Of a stretch of 64,000 nt of DNA, positions 46,342-60,689 are shown piece by piece. How positions within the stretch are numbered: position 1 is the stretch's first letter; each line of letters opens with the position of its first letter. The translations under genes and the position numbers were made by a program. Under the pieces are notes generated by a model. That model had not been told where the DNA came from and searched no databases. It was given only the letters and a program-made list of their open reading frames with translations. The stretch covers positions 1 to 64,000 of the forward strand of contig NZ_JAEHFX010000007.1 in NCBI RefSeq assembly GCF_016623615.1, in the 5' to 3' direction. The stretch comes from Adhaeribacter terrigena. Lineage in GTDB: Bacteria; Bacteroidota; Bacteroidia; Cytophagales; Hymenobacteraceae.

Positions 46342-46900
46342 AACTGGTGCGGTTTTCTCTATCTGAAAGCGTGATCATTTTCTGTAATTTCATGCGGGCC
46401 TTAAACAAATTCGATTTAGAGGCTCCTTCGGTGATCTGCAGTTTTTCGGCTATTTCCGGATGGGAATATCCTTCTATCACGTGCAGGTTAAAAACCAGGC
46501 GGTAAGAAGGCGAAAGCAACTGCACCATAGCCAGAATTTCTTCTGCCGAAATGGTATCTAAAACATCTTCAAAACCCATTTCGCTTTCGGCGTAAACCAG
46601 GTCGAGGCTGTGGTAGTGCTTGCTGTTTTTCCGGTAATGGTCTATGGCCGTATGCACCATGATCTTGCGCAGCCAGCCCCGGAAGGCTTTGTCTTGCTGG
46701 TAAGTCTGTAAATTGGTGAATACTTTCATAAATCCGTCGTTCAGAATTTCAGCAGCTTCCTCACGGCTATCGGCGTAACGCAGGCAGATGGCCATCGAAA
46801 AACCATAGTACTGTTTGTAGAGCATTTTCTGGCTTTTCAGATCGCCGCGAATGCATCCATCAATCAGGTCTTTCTCGTAAAGGTCTACTGCGGTGCTCAA
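46331..46900 (-). CDS. ECF RNA polymerase sigma factor
   Basis: 189 residues. Sigma region 2 (about 10-80: CIRGDLKSQKMLYKQYYG, ILNDGFMKVFTNLQTYQ, FRGWLRKIMVHTAIDHYRKN) and region 4.2 (about 125-175: LSPSYRLVFNLHVIEGYSHPEIAEKLQITEGASKSNLFKARMKLQ), without regions 1 and 3, i.e. a compact ECF factor. The only in-frame start that keeps region 2 intact is TTG at 46898-46900; no in-frame ATG lies nearby. Two promoters of the GGCAAC-N17-CGACCT type lie upstream at 46932 and 47041, the same type found before seven neighbouring genes, so it probably transcribes itself and that regulon. Confidence 0.92.
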   Translation of the reverse strand: MSTAVDLYEKDLIDGCIRGDLKSQKMLYKQYYGFSMAICLRYADSREEAAEILNDGFMKVFTNLQTYQQDKAFRGWLRKIMVHTAIDHYRKNSKHYHSLDLVYAESEMGFEDVLDTISAEEILAMVQLLSPSYRLVFNLHVIEGYSHPEIAEKLQITEGASKSNLFKARMKLQKMITLSDRENRTSYAR

Positions 46901-46931: not shown

Positions 46932-46960
46932 AGGTCGGATAAAGTTTTGCAACCGTTGCC
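46932..46960 (-). promoter_or_regulatory. ECF-type promoter P1 of the sigma gene
   Basis: GGCAAC (46955-46960), 17 bp, CGACCT (46932-46937); the -10 ends 32 bp before the TTG start. Confidence 0.75.
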
Positions 46961-47040
46961 TGCCTTCTAAAAAAAAGTTTATTTTTTTTTCAACCCTGTT
47001 CAGCATCCGGTTCTCTTTACCGGGAAGCATAATTATAAAC

Positions 47041-47069
47041 AGGTCGGAATGAAAGCGTTAAGGGTTGCC
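47041..47069 (-). promoter_or_regulatory. ECF-type promoter P2 of the sigma gene
   Basis: GGCAAC (47064-47069), 17 bp, CGACCT (47041-47046), in tandem with P1 and 109 bp farther upstream. Confidence 0.7.
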
Positions 47070-47144
47070 TGGGGCTTCAGACTTTTTTTAAATTTAAGAA
47101 AAAAAAAGCACAATTACCCGTTTCCGGGGCCTGGTGCGACCGGG

Positions 47145-47178
47145 CAAAAAAAAATCCCGCCGTAACAGCGGGATTTTT
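47145..47178 (-). terminator. Intrinsic terminator without an assigned gene
   Basis: AAAAATCCCGC and GCGGGATTTTT around CGTAACA; the minus-strand T-run has nine T residues. It may end a short untranslated transcript. Confidence 0.65.
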
Positions 47179-47613
47179 CCAGGAATATATGCAAATCATT
47201 ACTACTCAATTTCAGGAAAACAGTTGGCGGCACCAGATAAATCTGCTTTAAAATAGCTTTGTGCGCTTTGCCAATGTTTAACGATACAATTTTACGGCGG
47301 CTATTGCCCGAAAAAAAGGAAACTATGCCATGCAACGTAACAATTGTTTTACCACCTTTTCAGGAATATTTTCAGAACCACAATTCAATTTCACAAAATA
47401 TAAAAACGGCAAAAACCTCAAAAACAACCGTTTTTAGTCTGAAGCTGTCTTAATTTACTTCAATTTATGCGCTAATAATTTTCCGGAATTATAATTAAAA
47501 CGCAACATACTGCTTACACTATATTCAACAAAAAGCGCGTTCTGAAATTGAATCTGAAGCTCTAAAACCGGTGGAAACTGAAAGGCCCAGCGGTGATTTT
47601 ATAAACAGCAAAA

Positions 47614-47642
47614 AAAAAGTCCGGGCTTAACCCGGACTTTTT
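47614..47642 (-). terminator. Intrinsic terminator of paralogue 1
   Basis: AAAAAGTCCGGG and CCCGGACTTTTT around CTTAA; follows the 29-bp element after the stop codon at 47668. Confidence 0.88.
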
Positions 47643-47664
47643 GAGGCAAAAAGGATAGCGTTTT
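47636..47664 (+). repeat. 29-bp bipartite element
   Basis: ACTTTTT-N13-TAGCGTTTT between the paralogue 1 stop and its terminator, sharing ACTTTTT with the hairpin. Confidence 0.85.
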
Positions 47665-47667
47665 TGC

Positions 47668-49302
47668 TTATTGCAGTTTGGTAAACTTCAGGGTTTGTAC
47701 AGTTTTGCCCGCGGCAACCAGCCTGGCAACATAAATACCGGAAGCATGTTTACCTGCGTTCTGCCACTGCACATGCTGTTCGCCGGTAGTAGTTTTAGAA
47801 ATGCTGATCTGATCTACCTGCTGGCCTAGTACGTTACAGATCACAATTTTTTCGGCTTTGGCAGGCAGGTTGAACTTAAAGCTTACCTGGTTGGTGAACG
47901 GGTTGGGATAAGCCAGGAAACTGGTATTGGCGGCAATTGTTTCGTTGGTAGCGGTTACGCCGCCGGTATTGCTTACGCGCACGCCAAAGGTTTGCACCTG
48001 AGCTCCTCTTACCGGGCAGGCATTATCGCGCACGGTAACCCGGAAATAGTAGATCTGGTTGCTTACATCGTTGGCCGTCGGGATCCAGACCAGGGTTCCG
48101 GTTGGGCGGTTGCCCGGCGAAACGGAGAAATTGGCGCCTGGCAATATCTGGGCCGCATCGCTGGTCATTTCCAGCACATCATTGGCGTTGTTATCGTCGG
48201 CGGCCATCACAAAGTTAAGCGGGGTGCCCGGCCGAAGCGTGATGATATCGTTTGGTGTGATTTGCTGGCCATTGGCTAGCGGATTAGCTACACGTGGGTT
48301 TTGGTTCGGACCGCAATCCATAACGGTAATGAACATATCACGGCGGATGCTGCCGATCTTAACAGCCTGGCCGTTGATCCGGCGATATTCATCTACTTGT
48401 ACAACCGTTACATATTTATTCAGTCCCTGGTTAGATGGCGAATTCGGGAAATAGGCCGTTGGCGTAAAGGAAAGACTGCCGTTCTGGCTGTTCAGATCGA
48501 AATAAGGAATCGCAACCGGGGTGGCCTGGGTCCAGTCTACATTAAAGGAATGCATGGGAAAAGTGGCCGTAAATGTGCCGGCTGGTGCCATGGCGGTTTT
48601 GGTAGAATTTGTATCCGGATCGTTTATCAGGATTGAAGCGTAATTATTGTACGGCACCGAGGTAGTTGGATTATCGAGCGGGGTGGTAAAGCTGTAAACC
48701 AGGGAATCTTCGTCTATATCGGTGGCATAGGCGCTCAGCGTTATAGGTTGGTAAGCATTTACGTAAGGTACTACCAGCGAGCCGAATTCCGGCGAATTAT
48801 TATAGATCGGGTTCGTTGGCGAGCCTAAATTCAAATAGGCTTCGGTATACATGGTACCCTGCCCCTGTAAGTTAGCTGTAGAAGGGCGGCAGCATTCGTT
48901 CCAGCTCAGAATCCAGTCCGGGCATTGCTTTTCAGCCGGCGAAAACGTTACCGTAGTGGTAAAAGTGGTTTCTTCGTAATTAGCATAAAGAGAATTGGCA
49001 GAGCAAGTTGCCTGGATCTGCGGACAATACGGACTGCCTATTACTCCCACCCCTACTTTCGTCATCGTTACATTTCTTCCGGCATTACAGCCCTGCGATT
49101 TTATGTTCAAACTTGCTGTTGTAGGCGCAGCAATCCCGGAACAATCGCGGTACATCTTTAATTTCACAAGGTACACACCCGGGGCGGCACAGGTGTAATT
49201 CATTTCGGTGCCCTGAACGTGGGTAGCTTCAACATTCTGCGTAATGCCGGCAAACATCAAGGCCAGGGTTCCGGCCATCAGGTTTCGTAATTTTTTCTTC
49301 AT
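47668..49302 (-). CDS. Secreted surface paralogue 1, T9SS type A C-terminal domain
   Basis: 544 residues. Signal peptide to about residue 26 (GTLALMFAGITQNVEA). Head domain ATHVQGTEMNYTCAAPGVY with conserved cysteines (CSGIA, GCNAGRN, CPQIQATC, CPDWILSWNECCRPSTANL), an acidic DIDEDSLVYS near 200, the block KYVTVVQVDEYRRINGQ with DCGPNQNP, then a cadherin/Ig-like domain (LPGANFSVSPGNRPTGTLVW, RDNACPVRGAQ) and a type A sorting domain (AYPNPFTNQVSFKFN, VLGQQVDQI, GIYVARLVAAG, QTLKFTKLQ). Exported and surface-attached by T9SS; role likely adhesive or structural. ECF-type promoter at 49401-49429. Confidence 0.87.
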   Translation of the reverse strand: MKKKLRNLMAGTLALMFAGITQNVEATHVQGTEMNYTCAAPGVYLVKLKMYRDCSGIAAPTTASLNIKSQGCNAGRNVTMTKVGVGVIGSPYCPQIQATCSANSLYANYEETTFTTTVTFSPAEKQCPDWILSWNECCRPSTANLQGQGTMYTEAYLNLGSPTNPIYNNSPEFGSLVVPYVNAYQPITLSAYATDIDEDSLVYSFTTPLDNPTTSVPYNNYASILINDPDTNSTKTAMAPAGTFTATFPMHSFNVDWTQATPVAIPYFDLNSQNGSLSFTPTAYFPNSPSNQGLNKYVTVVQVDEYRRINGQAVKIGSIRRDMFITVMDCGPNQNPRVANPLANGQQITPNDIITLRPGTPLNFVMAADDNNANDVLEMTSDAAQILPGANFSVSPGNRPTGTLVWIPTANDVSNQIYYFRVTVRDNACPVRGAQVQTFGVRVSNTGGVTATNETIAANTSFLAYPNPFTNQVSFKFNLPAKAEKIVICNVLGQQVDQISISKTTTGEQHVQWQNAGKHASGIYVARLVAAGKTVQTLKFTKLQ

Positions 49303-49400
49303 TGGTCGTTTTTTTTAAGTGAGGAATATTTGAAAATTAAAGAATCACAACAAGCTTTGAAAGCATTCTACTAAAATTGTTCTTATATTTATTTTTCAGG

Positions 49401-49429
49401 CAGACACCGAATTGTGGTTCCGGGTTGCC
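49401..49429 (-). promoter_or_regulatory. ECF-type promoter of paralogue 1
   Basis: GGCAAC (49424-49429), 17 bp, TGTCTG (49401-49406); 99 bp before the start codon. Confidence 0.7.
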
Positions 49430-49460
49430 CGAGCGTGCCAGAATATATTTTAAACCCAAA

Positions 49461-49490
49461 ACCCGGAATGAGAGCTTCATCCCGGGCTTC
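49461..49490 (-). terminator. Probable terminator of paralogue 2
   Basis: ACCCGG-AATGA-GAGCT-TCAT-CCCGGG forms a hairpin with one mismatch; the minus-strand side runs into TTTTGGGTTT. Confidence 0.55.
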
Positions 49491-49534
49491 GGATAATTCG
49501 GCAATAAATAAACAGGATCAGTTATCAGGCCATG

Positions 49535-49563
49535 AGTTTTTCAGGCTGAAACCCTAGCGTTTT
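49535..49563 (+). repeat. 29-bp bipartite element
   Basis: AGTTTTT-N13-TAGCGTTTT with consensus middle CAGGCTGAAACCC, just after the paralogue 2 stop. Confidence 0.85.
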
Positions 49564-49568
49564 ACTTA

Positions 49569-51230
49569 TTACAGTTTGGTAAACTTCAGAGTTTGCACGG
49601 TTTTATCGGCGGAAACCAGTTTGGCAACATAAATACCGGCGGCGTGTTTTCCGGCGTTTTCCCACTGCAGGTGCTGTTCGCCTGATGCGGTTTTAGAAAT
49701 TTCGATCTGATCTACCTGACGGCCTAAAACGTTGTAGATGATAATGCTTTCGGCTTTTACCTGCTGGTTGAATTTAAAGCTTATTTTATCGGTGAACGGG
49801 TTTGGATAAGCGGTAAAATTGGCGTTAGCAGCGAAAGCCTTTTTAATGCCGGTTACATTTCCGTTCTGCCGCACCCGGACGCCGATGGTTCTTTCGTGGT
49901 AGCCGCGCATCGGGCTGACATTGTCTTTCAGCACCACATTGAAATAATACGGCTGGTCGCGTACATCGCTGGCAGTTGCCGTCCAGGTAACAGAGCCAGC
50001 CGGCAGATTTAAACCATTTTGCGAAAACACCGCTCCCGGCAAAATGCTGCTTACGTTCGAAGTCATCAGGACCGTACTGGTAGAATCCTGATCGGTGGCG
50101 GTTAGTTTCAGGTTCATGGTAACGCCCGGCCGAAGCTCAATCAGATCGCCTTCGGCAATAGCGGTTGCATTCATTTCTACCTGGCTCAGATATGGGTTAG
50201 CGTTGCCTGCACCATCTATTACATCGATATACGTTTCGCGGCGCACCGAACCGATTTTGGTAGGTACTCCGTTTATTTTCCGGTATTCATCTACCTGAAT
50301 GGTGAGCACGTAGCGGTTCTGGCCCATTTGAGAAGGCGGCCCGGAAGTGGTAATATAATATGCCGGTTGGAAAGCAATATTACCGGTATGGGGATTCAGC
50401 TCGAAAAATGGTTGGGCATTGACCACTTGTTGCCCGACCACCCAGTCTACAATTATAGAGAACAACGGAAACGATGGAGAATAATTCGTACCTAGTGCCG
50501 GCATAACAGCAATTTGCGGATTATTAATAGTATCGAAAGGTGGCTGCGGATTTGGATTTATGAAATGCCCTGCACCATTACCTGGAAGAGGCCCATACGT
50601 CAATGGCTGGTTGGCGGAGGTTAAAGGCGCTACCGAACTGTATACCAGCGAATCGCCGTCGGCATCCTGGGCTAGCGCGCTTACCAGTATTTTCTGATTA
50701 TAGCCAGCTGGTGGGGCATTGAAATTAATGGTATCGAACTGCGGTGAGCTGTTTACCAGGTTAGGCAGCAATTTTAAATGCGCTTCGGTGTAAATAGAAC
50801 TGGTGCTGGCGTTGTTGAGATTGGCAATATCGGTCCGGCAGCAGGTGCTCCAGCTCAGGACCCAATCGGTGCAGCTTTGTTCGGCTGCCGCAAAAGTGAG
50901 GGTTCCGGTGTAGGTGCCCAGGGAGAGAATTCCCTCGTAACCGGCATTACAACCACCTAAAGCCGCCGGCCCTTTCACCGATCTTATTTGCTGGCTTGCC
51001 AGGTTCAGGGTAATATTGCGGCCGGTATTGCAACCCGGCGCGGCAACCGTTATTCCCATGCTGGTCGGGAAAGCTGTGCTGTTGCATTCACGGTAAAGTT
51101 TAAAGGTTACTTCGTAGGTGTTGGGCGCAAGCGCTTTGTAAGTAAGCTCGGTGCCGGCAAAGTGCGTGGCATAGGTACTAAATTTAATGCCAGCCAGGAA
51201 AAGTAAAAGCAAGAGTAGTTCTTTTTTCAT
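49569..51230 (-). CDS. Secreted surface paralogue 2, T9SS type A C-terminal domain
   Basis: 553 residues. Signal peptide (LLLLLLFLAGIKFSTYA), head domain ATHFAGTELTYKALAPNTYE, DADGDSLVYSS near 195, the NPNPQPPFDTI-NPQIAV segment and the block YVLTIQVDEYRKINGVPTK, an Ig-like domain (LPGAVFSQNGLNLPAGSVTW, KDNVSPMRGYHE) and type A sorting domain (AYPNPFTDKISFKFN, GIYVAKLVSAD, QTLKFTKL). Lacks the CGGN cysteine after the block (DGAGN instead). Its 3' end is nearly identical in DNA to that of paralogue 3, suggesting gene conversion. ECF-type promoter at 51302-51331. Confidence 0.87.
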   Translation of the reverse strand: MKKELLLLLLFLAGIKFSTYATHFAGTELTYKALAPNTYEVTFKLYRECNSTAFPTSMGITVAAPGCNTGRNITLNLASQQIRSVKGPAALGGCNAGYEGILSLGTYTGTLTFAAAEQSCTDWVLSWSTCCRTDIANLNNASTSSIYTEAHLKLLPNLVNSSPQFDTINFNAPPAGYNQKILVSALAQDADGDSLVYSSVAPLTSANQPLTYGPLPGNGAGHFINPNPQPPFDTINNPQIAVMPALGTNYSPSFPLFSIIVDWVVGQQVVNAQPFFELNPHTGNIAFQPAYYITTSGPPSQMGQNRYVLTIQVDEYRKINGVPTKIGSVRRETYIDVIDGAGNANPYLSQVEMNATAIAEGDLIELRPGVTMNLKLTATDQDSTSTVLMTSNVSSILPGAVFSQNGLNLPAGSVTWTATASDVRDQPYYFNVVLKDNVSPMRGYHERTIGVRVRQNGNVTGIKKAFAANANFTAYPNPFTDKISFKFNQQVKAESIIIYNVLGRQVDQIEISKTASGEQHLQWENAGKHAAGIYVAKLVSADKTVQTLKFTKL

Positions 51231-51301
51231 GATTGTAGTGATTGAGGATTACAACAGCCCGGACTTTTGAAGCGCTTCTGGGGTTGGGCCTTTCTAATAA
51301 C

Positions 51302-51331
51302 AGGTCGTAAATAAGCGCCCAAAGGGTTGCC
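51302..51331 (-). promoter_or_regulatory. ECF-type promoter of paralogue 2
   Basis: GGCAAC (51326-51331), 18 bp, CGACCT (51302-51307); 72 bp before the start codon. Closely matches the promoter of paralogue 3 beyond the core: GGCAACyCTTTG and CGACCTrTTATTA. Confidence 0.78.
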
Positions 51332-51368
51332 TTGTTAGCAAAATATTTCTCCGGAAATATCAGGCTTT

Positions 51369-51397
51369 ACTTTTTCCGGCTGAAAGCATAGCGTTTC
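51369..51397 (+). repeat. 29-bp bipartite element
   Basis: ACTTTTT-N13-TAGCGTTTC, about 70 bp downstream of the small secreted gene. Confidence 0.75.
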
Positions 51398-51444
51398 TGA
51401 AACTACCTAAGAACATAAGGAAGAGATGCGGAATAATGCACAGG

Positions 51445-51473
51445 AGTTTGGGGAGTTAAAAGGCTAGCGTTCG
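51445..51473 (+). repeat. 29-bp bipartite element (degenerate)
   Basis: AGTTTGG-N13-TAGCGTTCG overlapping the stop codon of the small secreted gene. Confidence 0.4.
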
Positions 51474-51694
51474 GCGCTGCAGATCAGGTTATTTACCGGG
51501 CTTAAACTGCTTTTCGGTTTTTCTTTGCTGGCCGGTTCATCAGCCGAAAAGATTTCTCCGGTTGCTTGTATTTCCTGCGGGTCACAAAATTTACCGGAGG
51601 CAGTGAGCAAAAGAGTGCGGCGGGCGGCGGTTTCATTTGCTGCAATAGAAAAACCCGTTAACAGCCAAAGCAGCAGATAGCAAAATCGTTTCAT
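51464..51694 (-). CDS. Small secreted protein of the ECF regulon
   Basis: 76 residues with a signal peptide (FCYLLLWLLTGFSIAA, cleavage near residue 19), leaving a mature peptide of about 57 residues with two cysteines (KFCDPQEI and NLICSAER) that could form a disulfide. No family recognised. It lies between two of the large surface paralogues and has its own ECF-type promoter at 51761-51789, which supports it being a real gene and part of the same response. Could be a regulator, a ligand or a small surface component. Confidence 0.7.
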   Translation of the reverse strand: MKRFCYLLLWLLTGFSIAANETAARRTLLLTASGKFCDPQEIQATGEIFSADEPASKEKPKSSLSPVNNLICSAER

Positions 51695-51760
51695 CTTGTC
51701 GGGTTTTAAAAGTTTAGGTAATAAACAGCTCGTATTTTCTACCAGGTTGCTTACATAAAC

Positions 51761-51789
51761 AAGACACCTGAAAACTCCAAACCGTTGCC
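51761..51789 (-). promoter_or_regulatory. ECF-type promoter of the small secreted gene
   Basis: GGCAAC (51784-51789), 17 bp, TGTCTT (51761-51766); 67 bp before the start codon. Confidence 0.7.
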
Positions 51790-51827
51790 CGGGCCGGCAG
51801 GCATTTCTCTCTTAAGAAGCATAAAAA

Positions 51828-51857
51828 AACCCTTCCTGAATTTCTTGAGGAAGGGTT
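51828..51857 (-). terminator. Intrinsic terminator of paralogue 3
   Basis: AACCCTTCCT and AGGAAGGGTT around a 10-nt loop, with seven T residues on the minus strand. Confidence 0.85.
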
Positions 51858-51859
51858 AG

Positions 51860-51888
51860 AGTTTTCAGGCCTGAAACCCTAGCGTTTT
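51860..51888 (+). repeat. 29-bp bipartite element
   Basis: AGTTTTC-N13-TAGCGTTTT; the middle contains the perfect palindrome TTTCAGGCCTGAAA. Confidence 0.85.
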
Positions 51889-51890
51889 GC

Positions 51891-53567
51891 TTACTGCACT
51901 TTCGTAAATTTCAGGGTTTGGAGGGTTTTACCTTCCGAAATCAGTTTGGCAACGTACAAGCCGGCGGCGTGCTTGCCGGAGGTTTCCCATTTAATTTCCT
52001 GAGTGCCGGAAGCGGTTTTAGAGATCGTGATCTGATCTACCTGCTGGCCTAATAAATTGAAGATCATGATGCTTTCGGCTTTGGCCTGCTGGTTGAATTT
52101 AAAGCTTATTTTATCAGTGAACGGGTTTGGATAAGCAGTAAAATTGGCGTTAAAGATCAGGGCATCTGTGGTACCGGTTACGCCCCCGGTGTGGCTTACC
52201 CGAACGGCAAACGTTTCGGTGTGTACGCCGCGCAGCGGGTTAGCATTATCGCGGAGCTGCACCTGGAAATAGTACGGCTGGTCACGCACATCTGCGGCGG
52301 TTGGCGTCCAGGAAATGGTGCCGGTTGACGCATTGCCGGTTGTGTTTGTAAGGGTGGCGCCGGTTAAAATAGCCGAAACGTTGGAGGTTATGCTTACGGC
52401 ATCCGCAGCATTTCCATCGGAAGCGGCAATCTGCAGGTTAAGCGGGGTTCCGGGACGCAACTGAATTTCGGTGCCACTGGCAATGGGTTGGTTATTAGCC
52501 ATACGGGCAGTTACCTGCGGATTCTGATTGGCTCCGCCATCCATTACCTGGATCAGGGTTTCGCGGCGGACGGAGCCTACTTTCACAATTACATTATTGA
52601 TCTTCCGGAATTCTTCAACCTTGACAGAAACCAGGTACCGGTTTTCCCAATAAGCGGCGCTGTCGTAGTAAACGGAAGTATTGAACTTAAGCGCTCCGTC
52701 GGCAGCTTCTAAATAAAAGTAAGGCGCCGCAAATACAACCTGTTGCCCGGGAGTCCAGGTCACATGATAAGAATCCATGGGGTAAGTTGCTGAATAATTA
52801 GTAATGCCACCGGCAAAAATAGCGACCTGCGGATTAGAACCAGGATTACCAGGCGGTAAATTGTTGAAAGGAGGCAGTGGATTATAGTTTATCATAAAAC
52901 CACCAAGGCCACTATGACCAATGGTATCATAAGTGATCATGGTATTATGGCCTTCCAGCGGGGTTACCAGGGTATAAACCAGAGAGTCGCCGTCAAGGTC
53001 CCGGGCAGACATGCTCAGTTGGTGATCCTGGTATTTGTTTACGAAGAGTACCGGCGCATTGATAGAATCGAATTCCGGGGAGCTGTTTACCAAACCGGCT
53101 TGCAGTTTCAGTTCCGCTTCAGTATAAAGCACGGTTACCGTTGGATTGAGGGCATTCCTGGCTGGCGTGCGGCTTGCGTTGGTTACGCTTAGCCGCCAAT
53201 CGGAACAGCTGAATTCGGCGCTGGAAAAAGTTACTTTGCCGCTGTAGGTTACCACTTCATATACCGAAAAAGCAGCAAAAGAAGCGCAGTTTACAGTGGT
53301 TGCGGGTCCGTAAGGATTAACAAGTTTGCGGGAATCCTGATACAAAACCACAGTTCTGCCGCTGTTGCAGCCAGGTGCTTTCAATTCCAGATCCATGGTT
53401 GCCGGAATTGGGGCGCCCGTACAATCGCGGTAATGTTTGTAGGTAACCTGATAAGAATCGGTTCCGGTTTGCAGGTAAGCTATTTCACCGCCCAGATCGT
53501 GGCTGGCCACGGAAACCAGGCTGGTACCCAAAAAGAAAAAAGCAAGCAATGGTATTAATTTCTTCAT
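51891..53567 (-). CDS. Secreted surface paralogue 3, T9SS type A C-terminal domain
   Basis: 558 residues. Signal peptide (LLAFFFLGTSLVSVAS), head ASHDLGGEIAYLQTGTDSYQVTYKHYRDC (a diverged ATHxxG motif), DLDGDSLVYTL near 195, NPLPPFNNL-NPQVAIFAGG, block RYLVSVKVEEFRKINNVIVK, Ig-like domain and type A sorting domain (AYPNPFTDKISFKFN, GLYVAKLISEG, QTLKFTKVQ). Same architecture as paralogues 1, 2 and 6. ECF-type promoter at 53655-53683. Confidence 0.87.
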   Translation of the reverse strand: MKKLIPLLAFFFLGTSLVSVASHDLGGEIAYLQTGTDSYQVTYKHYRDCTGAPIPATMDLELKAPGCNSGRTVVLYQDSRKLVNPYGPATTVNCASFAAFSVYEVVTYSGKVTFSSAEFSCSDWRLSVTNASRTPARNALNPTVTVLYTEAELKLQAGLVNSSPEFDSINAPVLFVNKYQDHQLSMSARDLDGDSLVYTLVTPLEGHNTMITYDTIGHSGLGGFMINYNPLPPFNNLPPGNPGSNPQVAIFAGGITNYSATYPMDSYHVTWTPGQQVVFAAPYFYLEAADGALKFNTSVYYDSAAYWENRYLVSVKVEEFRKINNVIVKVGSVRRETLIQVMDGGANQNPQVTARMANNQPIASGTEIQLRPGTPLNLQIAASDGNAADAVSITSNVSAILTGATLTNTTGNASTGTISWTPTAADVRDQPYYFQVQLRDNANPLRGVHTETFAVRVSHTGGVTGTTDALIFNANFTAYPNPFTDKISFKFNQQAKAESIMIFNLLGQQVDQITISKTASGTQEIKWETSGKHAAGLYVAKLISEGKTLQTLKFTKVQ

Positions 53568-53654
53568 AAGTAGTAGTTAAAGAGGCAGAATGTGGTTGAA
53601 GAAAACGGCTTTGCAACAGAAGCGCTTCAGGAAGATAACAGGCCGTTTAATAAT

Positions 53655-53683
53655 AGGTCGTATGTTAAGAGCAAAGAGTTGCC
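53655..53683 (-). promoter_or_regulatory. ECF-type promoter of paralogue 3
   Basis: GGCAAC (53678-53683), 17 bp, CGACCT (53655-53660); 88 bp before the start codon. Confidence 0.78.
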
Positions 53684-53723
53684 TTGCTCTTAACAGTTAT
53701 TTCATTTTTTCTCTAACCGTTGC

Positions 53724-53772
53724 AAAAAGTATGAAGCCCGCTCTTTTTACAGCAGCGGGCTTCATACTTTTT
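53724..53772. terminator. Intrinsic terminator of paralogue 4
   Basis: A 19-bp perfect stem (53724-53742 with 53754-53772) with A and T runs on both sides. Confidence 0.88.
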
Positions 53773-53794
53773 TACCTTAAAACGATACCGTTTT
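53766..53794 (+). repeat. 29-bp bipartite element
   Basis: ACTTTTT-N13-TACCGTTTT between the paralogue 4 stop and terminator. Confidence 0.85.
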
Positions 53795-53796
53795 GC

Positions 53797-55308
53797 TTAT
53801 TGCACTTTCGTGAATTTCAGGGTTTGCGTGGTCTTGCCGGCTACTTCCAACCGGGCTAAATAAACGCCGGAAGAAAATTTATGCGCATTTTCCCAGGTAA
53901 TCTGCTGCGTTTCTGAAGATGTACTTTTCAGTGGAATGCGATCTATTTCCTGGCCTAAAATATTGCAGATCACGAGGGTTTGTACTTTATCTTTCGAGCT
54001 GAACCGGAAATGAACCGCAGTAGAGAACGGGTTAGGAAATGCAGTGAATTCGGGATCGAAGGTAGCTGCGTTTTGTATTCCTGAAGGACCTGCCACTACT
54101 TTAATACCGTAGATCTGCGTAACCGTGCCGCGAACCGGACAGGCATTATCTTTTACCATTACCGGGAAATATACGATCTTATTGCTGGCAACCGGCGGCG
54201 CCTGCCACCTGATGGTGCCGGTAGGTCTTTTGCCACCGCTGGAAGTAAAGCTAAAGCCGGAAAGGGCCGGACCGGGCATCAGGGCCGTGAGGCTATCGGC
54301 GGCGTTTGCATCGTCGGGGGCAAATTTAAAGATCAGGGAACTGCCGGCCGGCACCTGAATGATGCTGTTTGGCGCAACCGCCTTGCCATTGGCTGTAACC
54401 TTACTGATCTCCGGGTTTACATTTGGCGCATTGTTAACCATGTATACCGGCAAATTGCGTTGCGCAGTACTTACTTTGGTCATTACGCCGTTAATCTTCT
54501 CATAAGCCGTTGCCTGAATTACCACTGCATAAGCATTATGCTCGGGATTAGCAGAGGGCACAAATACGTTCGGAATAAAAGAAAGCAGGCCTGTATTGGG
54601 GTTCAGTTTTAAGCCCGTAGCGGTCGGAACTGGATTGTTGTAGGATAAACCCGGCGCGTAAACCAGCGGCGTATTATAATTCTCGAGGGCGGGCACCAGG
54701 GAGTATGCCAGCGAATCGGGCCCATAATTTTTTCTTTCTTCAGTAAAGTTGCTGATCGTGGCCGGTGCATTTACCGTTACAAACATATCTGAAGGCGCTA
54801 CAAAACCAGGCGAACTGTTGTTTCCGGAATAGGCTGCGGTATTAATGTAAGCTTCTACATATAAACAGGATTTTATGGCGTCGGGAAGATTGGCAAATCC
54901 GGAACGGTCGCAGTTTCTTACGCTGAGTAACCAGTCTTTACATTGCAGCTGCGCAGGCGTAAAAGAAAACGTAGCACTATACACCGACATGCGCAGATTA
55001 ATTAAAGCATTGCTGGTGCAGTGGTTCCCGGCAGATTCACAGTAAGGGTTCAGGCTCTGGCTGACAATGGTCTGATGTTCGGAAGTAAACGTTGTGCCAG
55101 TATTGCAGCCCGGCGATTTTAAATTGAACTGAATGCTGGCCGGCGGAATGGTGGAACGGCAATCATAAAAAACTTTATAGGTAGCCAGGAAAATATTGGG
55201 CGCTAAACCTGTATATTCTATCTCCCCTCCTATTAAATGGGTGGCCTGGCTGTTTTTTGTGCCGAAAAGTGCCAGAAAAAGCGAAAAAACAGCGGTTAAT
55301 TTTTTCAT
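53797..55308 (-). CDS. Secreted surface paralogue 4 (short subfamily), T9SS type A C-terminal domain
   Basis: 503 residues. Signal peptide (FSLFLALFGTKNSQA), head ATHLIGGEIEYTGLAPNIF, cysteine-bearing CKDWLLSVRNCDRSGFANL. The acidic DxDGDSLVY of the other paralogues is replaced by YGPDSLAYSLVP near 205, and the segment between head and C-terminal half is shorter. Ig-like domain with KRPTGTIRW and KDNACPVRG, then type A sorting domain (AFPNPFSTAVHFRFS, GVYLARLEVAG, QTLKFTKVQ). Forms a subfamily with paralogue 5. ECF-type promoter at 55406-55434. Confidence 0.86.
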   Translation of the reverse strand: MKKLTAVFSLFLALFGTKNSQATHLIGGEIEYTGLAPNIFLATYKVFYDCRSTIPPASIQFNLKSPGCNTGTTFTSEHQTIVSQSLNPYCESAGNHCTSNALINLRMSVYSATFSFTPAQLQCKDWLLSVRNCDRSGFANLPDAIKSCLYVEAYINTAAYSGNNSSPGFVAPSDMFVTVNAPATISNFTEERKNYGPDSLAYSLVPALENYNTPLVYAPGLSYNNPVPTATGLKLNPNTGLLSFIPNVFVPSANPEHNAYAVVIQATAYEKINGVMTKVSTAQRNLPVYMVNNAPNVNPEISKVTANGKAVAPNSIIQVPAGSSLIFKFAPDDANAADSLTALMPGPALSGFSFTSSGGKRPTGTIRWQAPPVASNKIVYFPVMVKDNACPVRGTVTQIYGIKVVAGPSGIQNAATFDPEFTAFPNPFSTAVHFRFSSKDKVQTLVICNILGQEIDRIPLKSTSSETQQITWENAHKFSSGVYLARLEVAGKTTQTLKFTKVQ

Positions 55309-55405
55309 AACTCAGAAAGGATAAAACCCGGGTGTATTGCTCTCAGAAAGTTCTAATATTTCAGGCAAAATTCCAAAAATATCTGGGCATAAACTAGATA
55401 CGAAC

Positions 55406-55434
55406 CAGACACTGAAAACAGCCGGACCGTTGCC
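55406..55434 (-). promoter_or_regulatory. ECF-type promoter of paralogue 4
   Basis: GGCAAC (55429-55434), 17 bp, TGTCTG (55406-55411); 98 bp before the start codon. Confidence 0.7.
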
Positions 55435-55517
55435 TGCTGTTTCAGGTACTTTCCAATAAAATCCGGGGCAATTTGGCTGGTTTTATCTTTTGCGCCTGCC
55501 AGAATAATACCGGTAAG

Positions 55518-55546
55518 CGTTTTCAGGGCTAAAATCCTAGCGTTTT
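55518..55546 (+). repeat. 29-bp bipartite element
   Basis: CGTTTTC-N13-TAGCGTTTT, 14 bp past the paralogue 5 stop codon. Confidence 0.75.
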
Positions 55547-55559
55547 AATTACCACTTCC

Positions 55560-57071
55560 CTACAGCTTCGTGAATTTCAACGTCCGGATGGTTTTATCGG
55601 CGGAAATAAGTTTGGCAACGTAGGTTCCGGCGGCGTATTTACCGGCATTCTGCCAATGGATATTTTGTTCGCCGGAAAGGACTTTTGGAATTAAAATTTC
55701 GTCTATTTGCTGACCCAGCAGGTTGCAGATCATAATCCTTTCCGCTTGGGCTGTCAGATTGCAGGTAAAACTTACGGCCTCGGTAAACGGGTTAGGATAC
55801 GCCTGAAAACCTGCATCAAAACGGGCATCATTTTGCAACCCGAGCGGGCTAGCCAGTAATTTCACGCCATAAACCCGGGTGGTTACGCCTCTTGCCGGGC
55901 AGGCATTATCCATAACCATAACCGGGAAATAGAATATCTGATCGGTAGCAATTGGGGCGGTATTAAACGTTAAGGTACCAGTAGGCCGGTTTCCGGTAAC
56001 TATTGCAGTGTTGGTATTAGCAGGGAAACCGGGAAATTGCGGATCAGGCAAAACAAGGGTTACAACATCGCCCGCGTTTGCATCGGCGGTACTGAACTGG
56101 AAATTTAATACATTTCCCGACCGGATTGAAACAAGTTCGTTGGGCTGCACAGGTTGTCCGTTGGCGCTAACGTTAAGCAATTCCGGATTGAGGTTAGCCG
56201 GGTTGTTCACAATAAAAATGGGCAGATTCCGCTGCGATGCACTTACTTTCCGGGAAATGCCGTTTATTTTCCGGTAGGCTGCGGCTTCCACCACCACAGT
56301 ATAAGCATTGGGGATTGTAGCGTTGCTATGATACACATTCGGCGTAAAAGTCATGATACCGGTATTCGGATGCAGCGTTACACCAGAACTTGTTGGCAAA
56401 GGCTGGCTAAAGGAAGTATTGGCAGTATAATTCAGAAAAACATTCTGGTCATTCTTTGCCGGCTTTAAGCTGTATACTATAGAATCTGGCTGGGAATTAC
56501 TCAGTATGGCCTGATTATTATAGGTAGCCGGCGCATTGAGGTTAAAAATTAAGGAAGCCGGGGGTACAAACGCGGGCGAATTTGCCTGTAAACTGCCCGT
56601 GAACGCCGTTAACGTTGCTTCCACATAAAGGCAGGCATTCTGGGAAGGCTCAATATTGGCCACCACGCTTTTCGAACATTCTCTTACGCTTAAAAACCAT
56701 TCTGCACACTGAAACTGGGGAAGCGAAAGGGCGAAAGTAGCCGTGTAGGTAGCTACCATGGCAAGCTGAGGCGGGTTTGCACCACAATTATTGCTGGTTC
56801 CGCCATTTATAAACAGTGATGTATTGGTTTGTAAATTTCCTGTAAGGGGAAAACCCACATTACAACCCGGCGACCGCAAGTTAAAAGTAACATTTGAAGC
56901 AGGGGGAATGACACTATTTGCTAAAGCGTAACTTTTATAAACGGCTAAAAAAACCCCGGGCGAAACGGCTTCATACGAAATTTCTGCGCCGATAATGTGG
57001 GTTGCCTGGCTGTTGCGCGAGATGAAATTTAAAGTGCATACAAGCAATAAGATAGCAGTAAAATTTTTCAT
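55560..57071 (-). CDS. Secreted surface paralogue 5 (short subfamily), T9SS type A C-terminal domain
   Basis: 503 residues from the ATG at 57069-57071, which gives a clean signal peptide (FTAILLLVCTLNFISRNSQA). A longer frame to 57173 is rejected because it would cover the ECF-type promoter at 57134-57162. Head ATHIIGAEISYEAVSPGVF, CAEWFLSVRECSKSVVANI, PDSIVYSLKP in place of the acidic motif, Ig-like domain (NRPTGTLTF, MDNACPARG) and type A sorting domain (AYPNPFTEAVSFTCN, GTYVAKLISAD, RTLKFTKL). Confidence 0.86.
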   Translation of the reverse strand: MKNFTAILLLVCTLNFISRNSQATHIIGAEISYEAVSPGVFLAVYKSYALANSVIPPASNVTFNLRSPGCNVGFPLTGNLQTNTSLFINGGTSNNCGANPPQLAMVATYTATFALSLPQFQCAEWFLSVRECSKSVVANIEPSQNACLYVEATLTAFTGSLQANSPAFVPPASLIFNLNAPATYNNQAILSNSQPDSIVYSLKPAKNDQNVFLNYTANTSFSQPLPTSSGVTLHPNTGIMTFTPNVYHSNATIPNAYTVVVEAAAYRKINGISRKVSASQRNLPIFIVNNPANLNPELLNVSANGQPVQPNELVSIRSGNVLNFQFSTADANAGDVVTLVLPDPQFPGFPANTNTAIVTGNRPTGTLTFNTAPIATDQIFYFPVMVMDNACPARGVTTRVYGVKLLASPLGLQNDARFDAGFQAYPNPFTEAVSFTCNLTAQAERIMICNLLGQQIDEILIPKVLSGEQNIHWQNAGKYAAGTYVAKLISADKTIRTLKFTKL

Positions 57072-57133
57072 AGGCGCAGGCAAATTACGTTCAGTGCTAC
57101 AATTGATAACTCCGGGCTCCGGCAGACAAATAT

Positions 57134-57162
57134 AATTCGGAATTAACTGATAAACAGTTGCC
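57134..57162 (-). promoter_or_regulatory. ECF-type promoter of paralogue 5
   Basis: GGCAAC (57157-57162), 17 bp, CGAATT followed by ATAT (57134-57139); 63 bp before the start codon. The weakest -10 of the set. Confidence 0.6.
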
Positions 57163-57267
57163 TTAGACTGCAAATTTATTTTTTACAATAAAAATCCTCC
57201 GTTATTGTTATCAATGAAGTTCTTTTTTATGGAAATCGGTACAAACAGCCAGACAGACCGTTCCTAC

Positions 57268-57296
57268 AGTTTTTGCACCAGAAACCCTAGCGTTTT
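57268..57296 (+). repeat. 29-bp bipartite element
   Basis: AGTTTTT-N13-TAGCGTTTT directly after the paralogue 6 stop codon. Confidence 0.85.
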
Positions 57297-57298
57297 TT

Positions 57299-58960
57299 TT
57301 ATTGCAGCTTGGTGAATTTCAGGGTTTGGATGGTTTTATCCTCTGAAATCAGTTTGGCTACATAGGTTCCGGCGGCATGTTTGTCTGCACTTTGCCAAGT
57401 GATCGAATGTCCAGCAGAAGTATTTTTGGGAATTGCAATTTCCTCTATTTGCTGGCCAAGGAGGTTGTAGATGGTGATAGTTTCGGCTTTGGTTGGCTCG
57501 TTTAAACGGAAGGTAATTTCATTGCTAAACGGGTTGGGAAAAGCAGTAAGGCTACTTTTGGTATTAAGATTTTCAGAAACGGATAAAGGATTCTTTATGA
57601 CCTTTACGCCAATTAAAAAATCATTTCTCCCTCTAAACGGACAGAAATTATCGGCCACCCGGATATTAAAGTACCTTACCTGATCACAATTCGGGCTTAA
57701 GGTTGCGAGCCAGTTAATGTTGCCAACCGGTTTAGCGGCACTGCTCAGGTTAAAGGTAGCTCCGGGCAGAACGGTAGTTACGTCACTTTCAATACTCAGG
57801 ATGTCATTCGGATCCTGATCGAAAGTAGTAAACTGCAGATTAAGCACAGAACCCTCCTGAACGGTATAAATACTATCTGCAGGAAAAGGATGACCGGGGA
57901 TAACGGGTGGCGTAATGTGGGGTAAATTATTTCCGCCGCAATCTTCAATCTTGAATACAAATTCGCGGCGGATAAAGCCAATTTTCTTTATTACCCCGTT
58001 AACCTTGCGCCATTCGTTTATCTGCACCGTTACGTAATATTTATTGGTAGTAGAAGCGGCTGTATTGGGGTTATAAGTGGCTGGAATGAAATTTAAGATG
58101 CCTAGTTTGGAATTTAATTTAAACCATGGGGTAATCGTCCCGGTTGGCTGGCTTCCCCAGTTAACTAAATAGGATTGAAGCGGAAAGGTTGGAGAGTAAT
58201 GCGTTCCCAAGTTAGGTGCATAAGCAATTTGCGGATTAGAGGGATTGCTGAATGGTGGATTAGGAGAAGGATTAAACACAATGCTCCCCGCCACTACGCC
58301 GTGCGGCTTATAAGTTACCGGCGTATTCGGGCCGGCCAAGGGCGCAACCAGTTCATAGGAAAGCGAATCGCAATCGGGATCAGTAGCGTTAAAAATGTAT
58401 TGCGCTTGCCTCATATAGCAAAAGAACGCAATCGGGTCGTCCATTGAATTTATCTGCGGAGAGCTATTCAGAATACCGGATTCCAGCTTCAGAAAAGTTT
58501 CATTATACATTCCTGCCGGAATAACTACGTTTTCGGTTTGCTGCCTGAAACTATTTCCGTAATTAAAACTAATTACCCAATCGCTGCAGGTTTGCTCTGC
58601 GGTACTGAAAGTAACAATTCCCTGGTATTGAACAAGCTGGAAAGCCAGCATTCCCGGGTTACAGTTAAAAGGAGCGGTAGCACAAAAAGGGTTTCTTAAA
58701 ATGCGGGTATTGGTAAGGTTTAGCGCTATGAAACGACCAGCATTACAGCCCGGGGCTTTAATCTCTATATTTTCTACAGGTCCGGCTGCAGGACCATTAC
58801 AATCACGGTAAGCATGTAACGTAACCTGGTACGTAGCCGGGGCAATGTTAAGATACGTTATAGTGGAGCTCACCAAGTAACTGGCCTGCACGAAATTAAT
58901 AAAAGCAGGAAACACCAATAGGCAAATTGTAAAAACGAGCAGGCTTGGTTTTATCTTCAT
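57299..58960 (-). CDS. Secreted surface paralogue 6, T9SS type A C-terminal domain
   Basis: 553 residues from the ATG at 58958-58960 (a further ATG at 58978 adds six residues). Signal peptide (LLVFTICLLVFPAFINFVQA), head ASYLVSSTITYLNIAPATYQ without the ATHxxG motif, DPDCDSLSYEL near 200, NPSPNPPFSN-NPQIAYAPNLGTHYSPTFPLQSY, block KYYVTVQINEWRKVNGVIKK with DCGGNNLP (closest to the 42502-44736 protein), Ig-like domain and type A sorting domain (AFPNPFSNEITFRLN, GTYVAKLISED, QTLKFTKLQ). ECF-type promoter at 59010-59038. Confidence 0.86.
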   Translation of the reverse strand: MKIKPSLLVFTICLLVFPAFINFVQASYLVSSTITYLNIAPATYQVTLHAYRDCNGPAAGPVENIEIKAPGCNAGRFIALNLTNTRILRNPFCATAPFNCNPGMLAFQLVQYQGIVTFSTAEQTCSDWVISFNYGNSFRQQTENVVIPAGMYNETFLKLESGILNSSPQINSMDDPIAFFCYMRQAQYIFNATDPDCDSLSYELVAPLAGPNTPVTYKPHGVVAGSIVFNPSPNPPFSNPSNPQIAYAPNLGTHYSPTFPLQSYLVNWGSQPTGTITPWFKLNSKLGILNFIPATYNPNTAASTTNKYYVTVQINEWRKVNGVIKKIGFIRREFVFKIEDCGGNNLPHITPPVIPGHPFPADSIYTVQEGSVLNLQFTTFDQDPNDILSIESDVTTVLPGATFNLSSAAKPVGNINWLATLSPNCDQVRYFNIRVADNFCPFRGRNDFLIGVKVIKNPLSVSENLNTKSSLTAFPNPFSNEITFRLNEPTKAETITIYNLLGQQIEEIAIPKNTSAGHSITWQSADKHAAGTYVAKLISEDKTIQTLKFTKLQ

Positions 58961-59009
58961 AATCAACAGGTATAACAATTCCCGGAATTAAATGTAGGTT
59001 ACTTTAGAT

Positions 59010-59038
59010 AAGTCGGGACAAATAGGCAAACCGTTGCC
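59010..59038 (-). promoter_or_regulatory. ECF-type promoter of paralogue 6
   Basis: GGCAAC (59033-59038), 17 bp, CGACTT (59010-59015); 50 bp before the chosen start codon. Confidence 0.75.
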
Positions 59039-59171: not shown

Positions 59172-60689
59172 CTATTGCAGCTTCGTGAATTTCAGGGTTT
59201 GAATGGTTTTGCTTTCTGTAATCAGTTTGGCTACGTAAGTTCCGGCGGCATGTTTACCGGCATTTTCCCAGGTAATTGAATGTTCAGCAGAAGCAGTTTT
59301 GGGTATTGCAATTTCGTCTATCTGCTGACCTAGTAAGTTATAAATAAAAATACTTTCGGCTTTGGTCACAGAACTTATTCTAAAATTTACTTTAACAGTA
59401 AAAGGGTTGGGATAAACCTGAAAGCTTGCCGCCCCAAAGCAATCCGAGGTAATACCCGTAATATTTCTAACCCGGATCCCGTAAGTATTCGTGAAAGTAC
59501 CCGGATAAGGGCAGGCCCCATCTATGGCGCTTACGTTAAAGTAATAGGGCTCATCCCGAACATCTGCGGAAGTTGGGGTCCAGCTTATCTGCCCTGAATT
59601 CGGACTTTGTCCGGGCGTTGAAGTAAAGGTGGCTTGGGATATTATATTCTGAATATTCGAAACCAGTGAAATAATATTTGATGCATCTAAATCGGAAGCA
59701 CTGAAATCCAGCGTTATTGTAGCCCCCGGATTCACATCGATGTAAGTATTCGGAGCGATAATCGAACCGTTTCGGGTAGCCGTAAGGGCGGGGGTATTAT
59801 TCGGATCGCTGAATACGTTTACCATAATACAGCGTTGGATAGTACCGATCAAAGTCATCTGCCCGCTGATTTTCCGATATTCTTCTACTTCCAGCCCAAC
59901 CATGTATTTATTTTCTGTTGCCCCGAGGCCGGCCGTAGCATTATAAGCGGTTGGTTTAAAAGTAATATTACCGGTGCGGGAATTCAGGGATAATGCCGGG
60001 CTGGCAGTAATGGGATCTAAATAGGTAAAACCTGGTGCATAGCCGGCCCACGGACCAAGTGACTGGAGATTATAAACAAGCGAATCACCATCCATATCTA
60101 TGGCAGCTGTGCTATAACTTATTAGTTGGTTTACATTTGCAAAAATAACTGGGGGGTTAATAAATTTAGGCGCCCTATTTATCATACCTGCTGATACTTT
60201 ATTTAAAGCTATTGGCTCTATAGCATAAGTCCCCCCCATATTGGCTGCTTCAAAATTACCGAAACCAGTTACCCCAAATTTGGTTTGCAAAGTATGTAAA
60301 CCTGGAGCCGCTATATTGGCTTTGGGTGTGAACGTAAACTTAACTTCAGCATTCTGGTAATTAAGCGGCCCGGTAGATGTACAAGCTGCTGTAACTGACG
60401 AACAAAAAGGATTCCCAAAACTCACGATTGGATTCCATGAATAAGTGTCGTATACCGGCGAACCATTATCGAGCGTATAAGCAACCGGACCTGTCTGGAA
60501 ACTACCAGGAACCGGATTGCAATTCCGATATAAATTAAATGTAAAACCATGGTCTACCAAGTTAGACGCCGGGGCAGCATAATCATGATAAACAAAATCG
60601 TACCCTTGGGCAAAACTTTTACCGGAACTTAGAAGCAAAGGTAGCAAAAGCAGGGCTTTTAAAATCTTTGTTTGGAAATCAGATCTCAT
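59172..60689 (-). CDS. Secreted surface paralogue 7 (diverged), T9SS type A C-terminal domain
   Basis: 505 residues with a signal peptide (LKALLLLPLLLSSGKSFA). The ATHxxG head is absent, replaced by GYDFVYHDYAAPASNLVDHGFTF; the later parts match the family: DMDGDSLVYNL near 200, block KYMVGLEVEEYRKISGQM, Ig-like domain (QSPNSGQISWTPTSADVRDEPYYF) and type A sorting domain (VYPNPFTVKVNFRIS, GTYVAKLITES, QTLKFTKLQ). Unlike the other six it has no GGCAAC-type promoter, so it may be under different control; a TTTCAA-n-TTGAAA palindrome lies at about 60768-60780. Confidence 0.84.
   Translation of the reverse strand: MRSDFQTKILKALLLLPLLLSSGKSFAQGYDFVYHDYAAPASNLVDHGFTFNLYRNCNPVPGSFQTGPVAYTLDNGSPVYDTYSWNPIVSFGNPFCSSVTAACTSTGPLNYQNAEVKFTFTPKANIAAPGLHTLQTKFGVTGFGNFEAANMGGTYAIEPIALNKVSAGMINRAPKFINPPVIFANVNQLISYSTAAIDMDGDSLVYNLQSLGPWAGYAPGFTYLDPITASPALSLNSRTGNITFKPTAYNATAGLGATENKYMVGLEVEEYRKISGQMTLIGTIQRCIMVNVFSDPNNTPALTATRNGSIIAPNTYIDVNPGATITLDFSASDLDASNIISLVSNIQNIISQATFTSTPGQSPNSGQISWTPTSADVRDEPYYFNVSAIDGACPYPGTFTNTYGIRVRNITGITSDCFGAASFQVYPNPFTVKVNFRISSVTKAESIFIYNLLGQQIDEIAIPKTASAEHSITWENAGKHAAGTYVAKLITESKTIQTLKFTKLQ

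Follow-up and report, generated by a model that had tools for sequence, protein, structure and literature searches.

Putative ECF sigma factor promoters upstream of T9SS cargo genes, and a candidate anti-sigma factor bearing a T9SS sorting domain, in Adhaeribacter terrigena

ECF sigma factors associated with the T9SS

To our knowledge, little is known about the regulation of T9SS cargo genes beyond Porphyromonas and Flavobacterium. In Porphyromonas gingivalis, the PorX/PorY two-component system activates SigP, which controls the genes of the T9SS machinery and for which C(T)AAA(G/C/T)A(T)A(C)T(A/G)A has been proposed as the motif (PMC4800418). PorA, a CTD-bearing surface protein, feeds a signal into this PorXY-SigP pathway (PMC7712824). 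In Flavobacterium psychrophilum, promoters of the SM6 class, which were mapped by transcription starts and have a CGT -10, drive an ECF/anti-sigma operon and T9SS components; the sigma factor responsible for them is not settled (PMC9723704). A class I anti-sigma domain is present in the neighbourhood of only 6% of Bacteroidetes ECFs (PMC7406223). Our literature search found no cargo-directed ECF regulon with a T9SS sorting domain on the anti-sigma factor and no report of GGCAAC with a Bacteroidetes sigma factor, and the PorA work (PMC7712824) was the only study found that joins a type-B CTD, the T9SS and an anti-sigma factor.

We analysed a locus of A. terrigena that encodes an ECF sigma factor, an overlapping protein of 490 amino acids and a series of T9SS cargo proteins. 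The explanation that we favour, and in which we have good confidence, is that the two overlapping genes encode an autoregulated sigma/anti-sigma pair, that nine sites in the locus are its promoters, that it controls a T9SS-cargo regulon, and that the 490-aa protein senses the status of surface proteins or of the T9SS. Such a system would resemble PorXY-SigP in being an autoregulated ECF sigma factor tied to the T9SS, but its targets are cargo genes, its anti-sigma factor itself carries a sorting domain and its motif is different. It thus fails the definition of a SigP/PorXY-type system, namely T9SS machinery targets reached through the SigP motif. It likewise differs from the SM6 class, whose targets are T9SS components rather than cargo.

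Genes and promoter sites of the locus

The window analysed here is a 64 kb stretch of A. terrigena DNA. The genes of the locus, with the search results that support their assignment, are:

42502..44736, minus strand: surface protein, 744 aa, CHU_C type-B T9SS domain (CHU_C 1.1e-16); no site of its own found by weight matrix
44869..46341, minus strand: probable membrane anti-sigma factor, 490 aa, 11-nt overlap with the sigma gene (CHU_C 1.2e-21, Ig_7 0.00098, TIGR04131 above cut-off; N-terminal profile E 2e-10; BLAST to cargo paralogues; low-confidence AlphaFold layout)
46331..46900, minus strand: ECF sigma factor, 189 aa, TTG start (Sigma70_r2 1.4e-13, Sigma70_r4_2 1.1e-15, TIGR02937 above cut-off; A. 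soli orthologue 87% identical)
47668..49302, minus strand: secreted paralogue, 544 aa, T9SS type-A sorting domain (PF18962 3.1e-8)
49569..51230, minus strand: secreted paralogue, 553 aa, T9SS type-A sorting domain (PF18962 1.6e-8)
51464..51694, minus strand: small protein, 76 aa, signal-peptide-like start, no family in the domain search, no homologue in the fetched loci
51891..53567, minus strand: secreted paralogue, 558 aa, T9SS type-A sorting domain (PF18962 match at C22:51921-52133 in the whole-genome search)
53797..55308, minus strand: secreted paralogue, 503 aa, T9SS type-A sorting domain (PF18962 2.2e-6)
55560..57071, minus strand: secreted paralogue, 503 aa, sub-threshold type-A sorting domain (PF18962 1.4e-4, under the curated cut-off)
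57299..58960, minus strand: secreted paralogue, 553 aa, T9SS type-A sorting domain (PF18962 5.8e-7)
59172..60689, minus strand: paralogue, 505 aa, type-A sorting domain (PF18962 4.5e-6); no site found by weight matrix

The original prediction had described nine minus-strand GGCAAC sites with a 17-bp (once 18-bp) spacer, placed 30-140 bp before gene starts and without an intergenic counterpart elsewhere in the window. A pattern scan with GGCAACN{17,18}YGWMYK bore this out, finding exactly nine matches, all on the minus strand and each where it had been placed:

46932..46960, minus strand: GGCAAC-N17-CGACCT, proximal promoter site of the sigma gene, kept in A. soli at G001:C9:63064
47041..47069, minus strand: GGCAAC-N17-CGACCT, distal promoter site of the sigma gene, kept in A. 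soli at G001:C9:63158
49401..49429, minus strand: GGCAAC-N17-TGTCTG, promoter site of 47668-49302
51302..51331, minus strand: GGCAAC-N18-CGACCT, promoter site of 49569-51230
51761..51789, minus strand: GGCAAC-N17-TGTCTT, promoter site of the small gene 51464-51694
53655..53683, minus strand: GGCAAC-N17-CGACCT, promoter site of 51891-53567
55406..55434, minus strand: GGCAAC-N17-TGTCTG, promoter site of 53797-55308
57134..57162, minus strand: GGCAAC-N17-CGAATT, promoter site of 55560-57071
59010..59038, minus strand: GGCAAC-N17-CGACTT, promoter site of 57299-58960

The spacer is 17 bp at eight of the nine sites and 18 bp at 51302. The -10 edge lies 31-140 nt from the start codon (31, 140, 98, 71, 66, 87, 97, 62 and 49 nt in order from 46932 to 59010, taking ATG 57071 and ATG 58960 as the true starts of two of the genes). 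GGCAAC by itself is frequent in the window, with 71 copies, so the information must sit in its pairing with a -10 box and in its position. Equal frequency of such matches by chance would have refuted the prediction; 0.59 matches to the full pattern were expected in the window against the nine observed, and none of 100 dinucleotide shuffles reached nine. A weight matrix ranked the same nine as the top nine places of the window (weakest site 16.4, next place 14.6). This matrix was derived from pattern hits and partly trained on these nine sites, and its invariant GGCAAC is a matter of construction.

The sites precede six paralogues of 503-558 aa, the small gene and, as a pair, the sigma gene. 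The expectation that they would lie before the sigma gene, the large secreted paralogues and the small gene was met in these cases, but even the weight matrix gave no site for the seventh paralogue (59172-60689) or for the CHU_C paralogue (42502-44736). The latter gene starts 132 bp downstream of the anti-sigma gene and perhaps belongs to the same operon. The sigma gene had also been placed in the middle of the set, which proved wrong, as every paralogue with a site lies at higher coordinates than it does. The type-A sorting domain scored above the curated cut-off in five of the six site-bearing paralogues and below it in one. No solved structure related to a secreted paralogue was found. The 76-aa open reading frame 51464-51694 has a strong site, yet a homologue is absent from every fetched locus.

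Several other origins of the sites were considered. The Bacteroidota housekeeping -7 box TAnnTTTG is missing around seven of the nine sites and is without a -33 partner near the other two, which ruled out housekeeping promoters. Chance was ruled out by the shuffles together with the control motifs described below. A hairpin or RNA element was rejected since the inverted repeats seen at some sites, such as 53655 and 59010, are not common to all. The site at 53655 is enclosed by a perfect inverted repeat, GTTAAGAGCAA-GGCAACTCT-TTGCTCTTAAC (approximately 53665-53694, minus strand), and the site at 59010 includes GGCAA-CGGT-TTGCC.

The sigma factor family and its predicted regulon

The product of 46331-46900 satisfies the domain definition of an ECF (group IV) sigma factor, with Sigma-70 regions 2 and 4 only in 189 aa, and its nearest solved relatives are ECF sigmas. 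We compared it with the 79 closest homologues encoded in named genomes (L111-L189), which are 46-57% identical to it. In an unsupervised count of hexamers upstream of these sigma genes, GCAACC (65/79) and GGCAAC (53/79) ranked at the top. The element VSCAAC-N17-CGW was found before 67 of the 79 sigma genes but before only 23 of 1145 other ORFs in the same loci, and the stricter GGCAAC-N17-CGW before 47/79 and 3/1145, respectively. The two-part, autoregulated promoter expected of an ECF sigma factor, with its fixed spacing and an AAC-containing -35, is therefore present, and on these sequence comparisons the GGCAAC-type element is predicted to be the promoter by which this ECF group regulates itself throughout Bacteroidota.

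Outside Adhaeribacter the -10 before these sigma genes is mostly CGT, and CGA occurs only where residue 83 of the sigma factor, which lies in region 2.4, is His. CGA was found at three of the seven His83 loci with a site, in Adhaeribacter and two Hymenobacter, and at none of the 65 Asn83 loci. Asn is the common residue at this position, also in the alignment with solved ECF sigmas. The numbers are small and the species related, and we take this covariation as no more than a hint. In 15 genomes of the same bacterial family, one -10 form, as intergenic GGCAAC-N17-CGTGAT, was located mostly at the sigma gene itself. An exception, in another genus of the family (L199, G027), precedes a gene of 221 aa whose C-terminus resembles a T9SS sorting domain.

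The locus is conserved in a second species of the genus, Adhaeribacter soli MA2 (contig NZ_VTWT01000002.1, G001:C9), where it is syntenic and flanked by the same dihydrolipoyl dehydrogenase gene. Two sites lie upstream of the A. soli sigma gene, so that the tandem pair is kept, and single sites lie upstream of four paralogues; two more genes of the locus have weaker weight-matrix matches. The adjacent anti-sigma-like protein has the same architecture in both species and is only about 46% identical between them, yet the sites are kept.

Among the other sigma genes of the A. terrigena genome, none is preceded by GGCAAC-N16-18 and such a -10. The partial exception is an ECF gene (L045, G000:C3:8285) that is preceded by a looser relative, CGCAAC-N17-TGACAT, and adjoins a T9SS type-A cargo gene; this may be a sister system or a case of cross-talk. 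T9SS genes also flank two other ECF loci: L035 (G000:C18:304733) has a CHU_C gene of 1954 aa nearby, together with a gene judged by eye to be PorP/SprF-like, and L038 (C11:217118) adjoins a 1126-aa CHU_C gene.

Taken with the family-wide enrichment, the conservation in A. soli, the near absence of the element from other sigma genes and the lack of TAnnTTTG at seven of nine sites, these results support the original assignment of the nine sites to the locally encoded ECF sigma factor. They are very probably its promoters, in the absence of transcription start or binding data. We also considered whether GGCAAC...YGWMYK might instead be bound by an activator or form part of an RNA leader, for which the inverted repeats held by or surrounding some sites, such as 53655, could be cited. 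A pair of hexamers at an invariant distance of 17 bp, with CG[AT] as the -10, is, however, the format of an ECF promoter, only some of the sites have the repeats, the element accompanies homologous ECF genes throughout the phylum, and its -10 base covaries with sigma residue 83; we regard this alternative as very improbable.

We then considered the rest of the genome. GGCAACN{17,18}YGWMYK has 67 matches in the A. terrigena genome (58 outside the locus) and 60 in A. soli (54 outside). These were compared with the T9SS sorting-domain genes of each genome: 145 type-A and 25 type-B entries in A. terrigena, with one sub-threshold locus paralogue added by hand that does not affect the outside count, and at least 180 entries in A. 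soli, at least 150 of them type A. Just upstream of a sorting-domain gene and on the correct strand lay eight of the 58 outside sites in A. terrigena, against 0.61 expected, and, among the genes listed, at least 11 of the 54 in A. soli, against 0.53. Expectations assume uniform placement, under which eight or more at 0.61 has a Poisson probability of about 3e-7. As a control, a motif in which the -35 was read backwards (CAACGG) gave 0/31 before cargo genes in A. terrigena and 0/42 before those listed in A. soli. The opposite-strand control over all sites gave 0/67 and, for the genes listed in A. soli, 1/60. Products encoded downstream of outside sites include PKD, GEVED, MAM, CUB and ice-binding-like proteins and an OmpA/PD40 protein. 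Both Adhaeribacter genomes encode the T9SS core protein SprA. A near-identical site in both genomes (L054, G000:C18:320154; L064, G001:C8:781818) precedes a lipoprotein-like gene without a sorting domain, the products being 69% identical.

The local surface-protein regulon originally proposed is thus too narrow, as a clear subset of the 58 further matches precedes T9SS cargo genes elsewhere in the genome. In each genome, about 80% of the matches outside the locus do not adjoin listed cargo genes, and many of these are probably chance occurrences. The breadth of control is the point at which a more restricted reading has to be weighed, in which the sigma factor and its promoters are correctly identified but act only locally, and the cargo sites in the rest of the genome are served by at least one further ECF sigma factor whose -35 preference is similar. 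Several outside sites do have CGTCTT or CGTCCT rather than CGACYT or TGTCTK as their -10 and might be read by a different ECF sigma factor, and the L045 gene, with its related upstream element and adjoining cargo gene, offers a candidate. Many outside cargo sites nevertheless share the exact locus types CGACCT, CGACTT and TGTCTG, four homologous outside gene pairs (50-69% identity) retain the site in both Adhaeribacter genomes, and none of the other sigma genes has the GGCAAC element with such a -10. We consider purely local control unlikely.

The overlapping 490-aa protein and a model for control of cargo genes

The protein encoded at 44869-46341 begins with an N-terminal two-helix domain (about residues 1-40), followed by a transmembrane helix (about 55-72) and a long linker. 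Its outer part comprises a cargo-type Ig domain (about 217-321), Ig_7 (332-400) and a T9SS type-B CHU_C domain (412-490). By BLAST, residues 250-321 are homologous to the Ig domains of the cargo paralogues (best E 7e-10), and the region that follows, with Ig_7 and CHU_C, matches the C-terminal end of the neighbouring 744-aa protein over residues 350-490 (E 8e-19). An AlphaFold model built from a two-sequence alignment agrees with two helices, a transmembrane helix, a long linker and beta domains, though at low confidence (pLDDT 49); no solved structure related to the protein was found.

These features raise the possibility that the 490-aa protein is ordinary T9SS cargo, that its gene overlaps the sigma gene without any functional link, and that the actual anti-sigma factor is encoded elsewhere. 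Its Ig domains are cargo-like and its C-terminal domain meets the definition of type-B cargo above the curated cut-offs (CHU_C 77.1 bits against 27; TIGR04131 43.8 against 35). The cleavable N-terminal Sec signal peptide that such cargo requires is, however, missing as judged by sequence without a predictor: the hydrophobic helix, itself placed by the low-confidence model, begins only after some 50 residues, most of them polar. A profile of the N-termini of 77 proteins encoded beside sister sigma genes also finds the 490-aa protein (E 2e-10), the overlap is conserved, and the same gene order recurs beside those 77 genes, as is expected of an anti-sigma factor. The ordinary-cargo reading is, in our judgement, quite improbable. 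More weakly, the profile finds other proteins adjoining ECF genes of the A. terrigena genome. No curated anti-sigma domain model in Pfam or NCBIfam matches the 490-aa protein. We conclude that it is a probable membrane anti-sigma factor, its binding and inhibition of the sigma factor being inferred.

The sister pairs share with the Adhaeribacter pair the related sigma factor, the upstream GGCAAC-N17-CGW and a related N-terminus and transmembrane helix. Whereas the Adhaeribacter protein ends in Ig and CHU_C domains, its counterparts end in an OMP_b-brl_2 barrel (by Pfam in the five examined, two of them far below the curated cut-off). Judged by C-terminal sequences, the Ig and CHU_C architecture occurs only in Adhaeribacter among 80 loci.

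In the autoregulated sigma/anti-sigma model that we favour, the sigma factor would switch on its own operon from the two tandem promoters, and would also drive the six neighbouring T9SS cargo genes, the small secreted gene and roughly ten more genes or operons elsewhere for surface proteins exported by the T9SS. The short cytoplasmic N-terminal domain of the 490-aa protein is inferred to hold the sigma factor at the inner membrane, which a single transmembrane helix would cross, and the outer part, with its cargo-like Ig and type-B sorting domains, may sense the state of the surface proteins or of the T9SS. Once this part was engaged, displaced or cleaved, the sigma factor would be freed, and its activity would be reinforced through the two autoregulatory promoters. 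The topology, the signal and the release step are likewise inferences.

In the flagellar system, the anti-sigma factor of sigma-28, FlgM, is a small soluble protein that is exported whole. If coupling exists in Adhaeribacter, which is hypothetical, the anti-sigma factor would similarly link a sigma factor to an export machine, but the 490-aa protein, unlike FlgM, is predicted to be membrane-anchored. Since such a protein cannot be exported whole, signalling would likely proceed by cleavage, by competition for cargo partners or through surface assembly, among which we do not choose. A more specific proposal, which we offer tentatively and would not yet back over others, is that the 490-aa protein is a membrane-tethered mimic of T9SS cargo. 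The T9SS or partners of the cargo would act on its sorting and Ig domains, the amount of free sigma factor would be set directly by the capacity for export or by the load of cargo, and cargo-gene control would thereby be coupled to export. Such a protein may have arisen in Adhaeribacter when half of a cargo protein, the C-terminal one, took the place of an outer-membrane barrel, the regulon expanding alongside.

These results yield a concrete promoter code for one ECF group of the Bacteroidota, together with a candidate anti-sigma family. They also provide a case in which the putative sensor part of a regulator resembles the product that it would regulate, and with them export-coupled control of T9SS cargo becomes directly testable.
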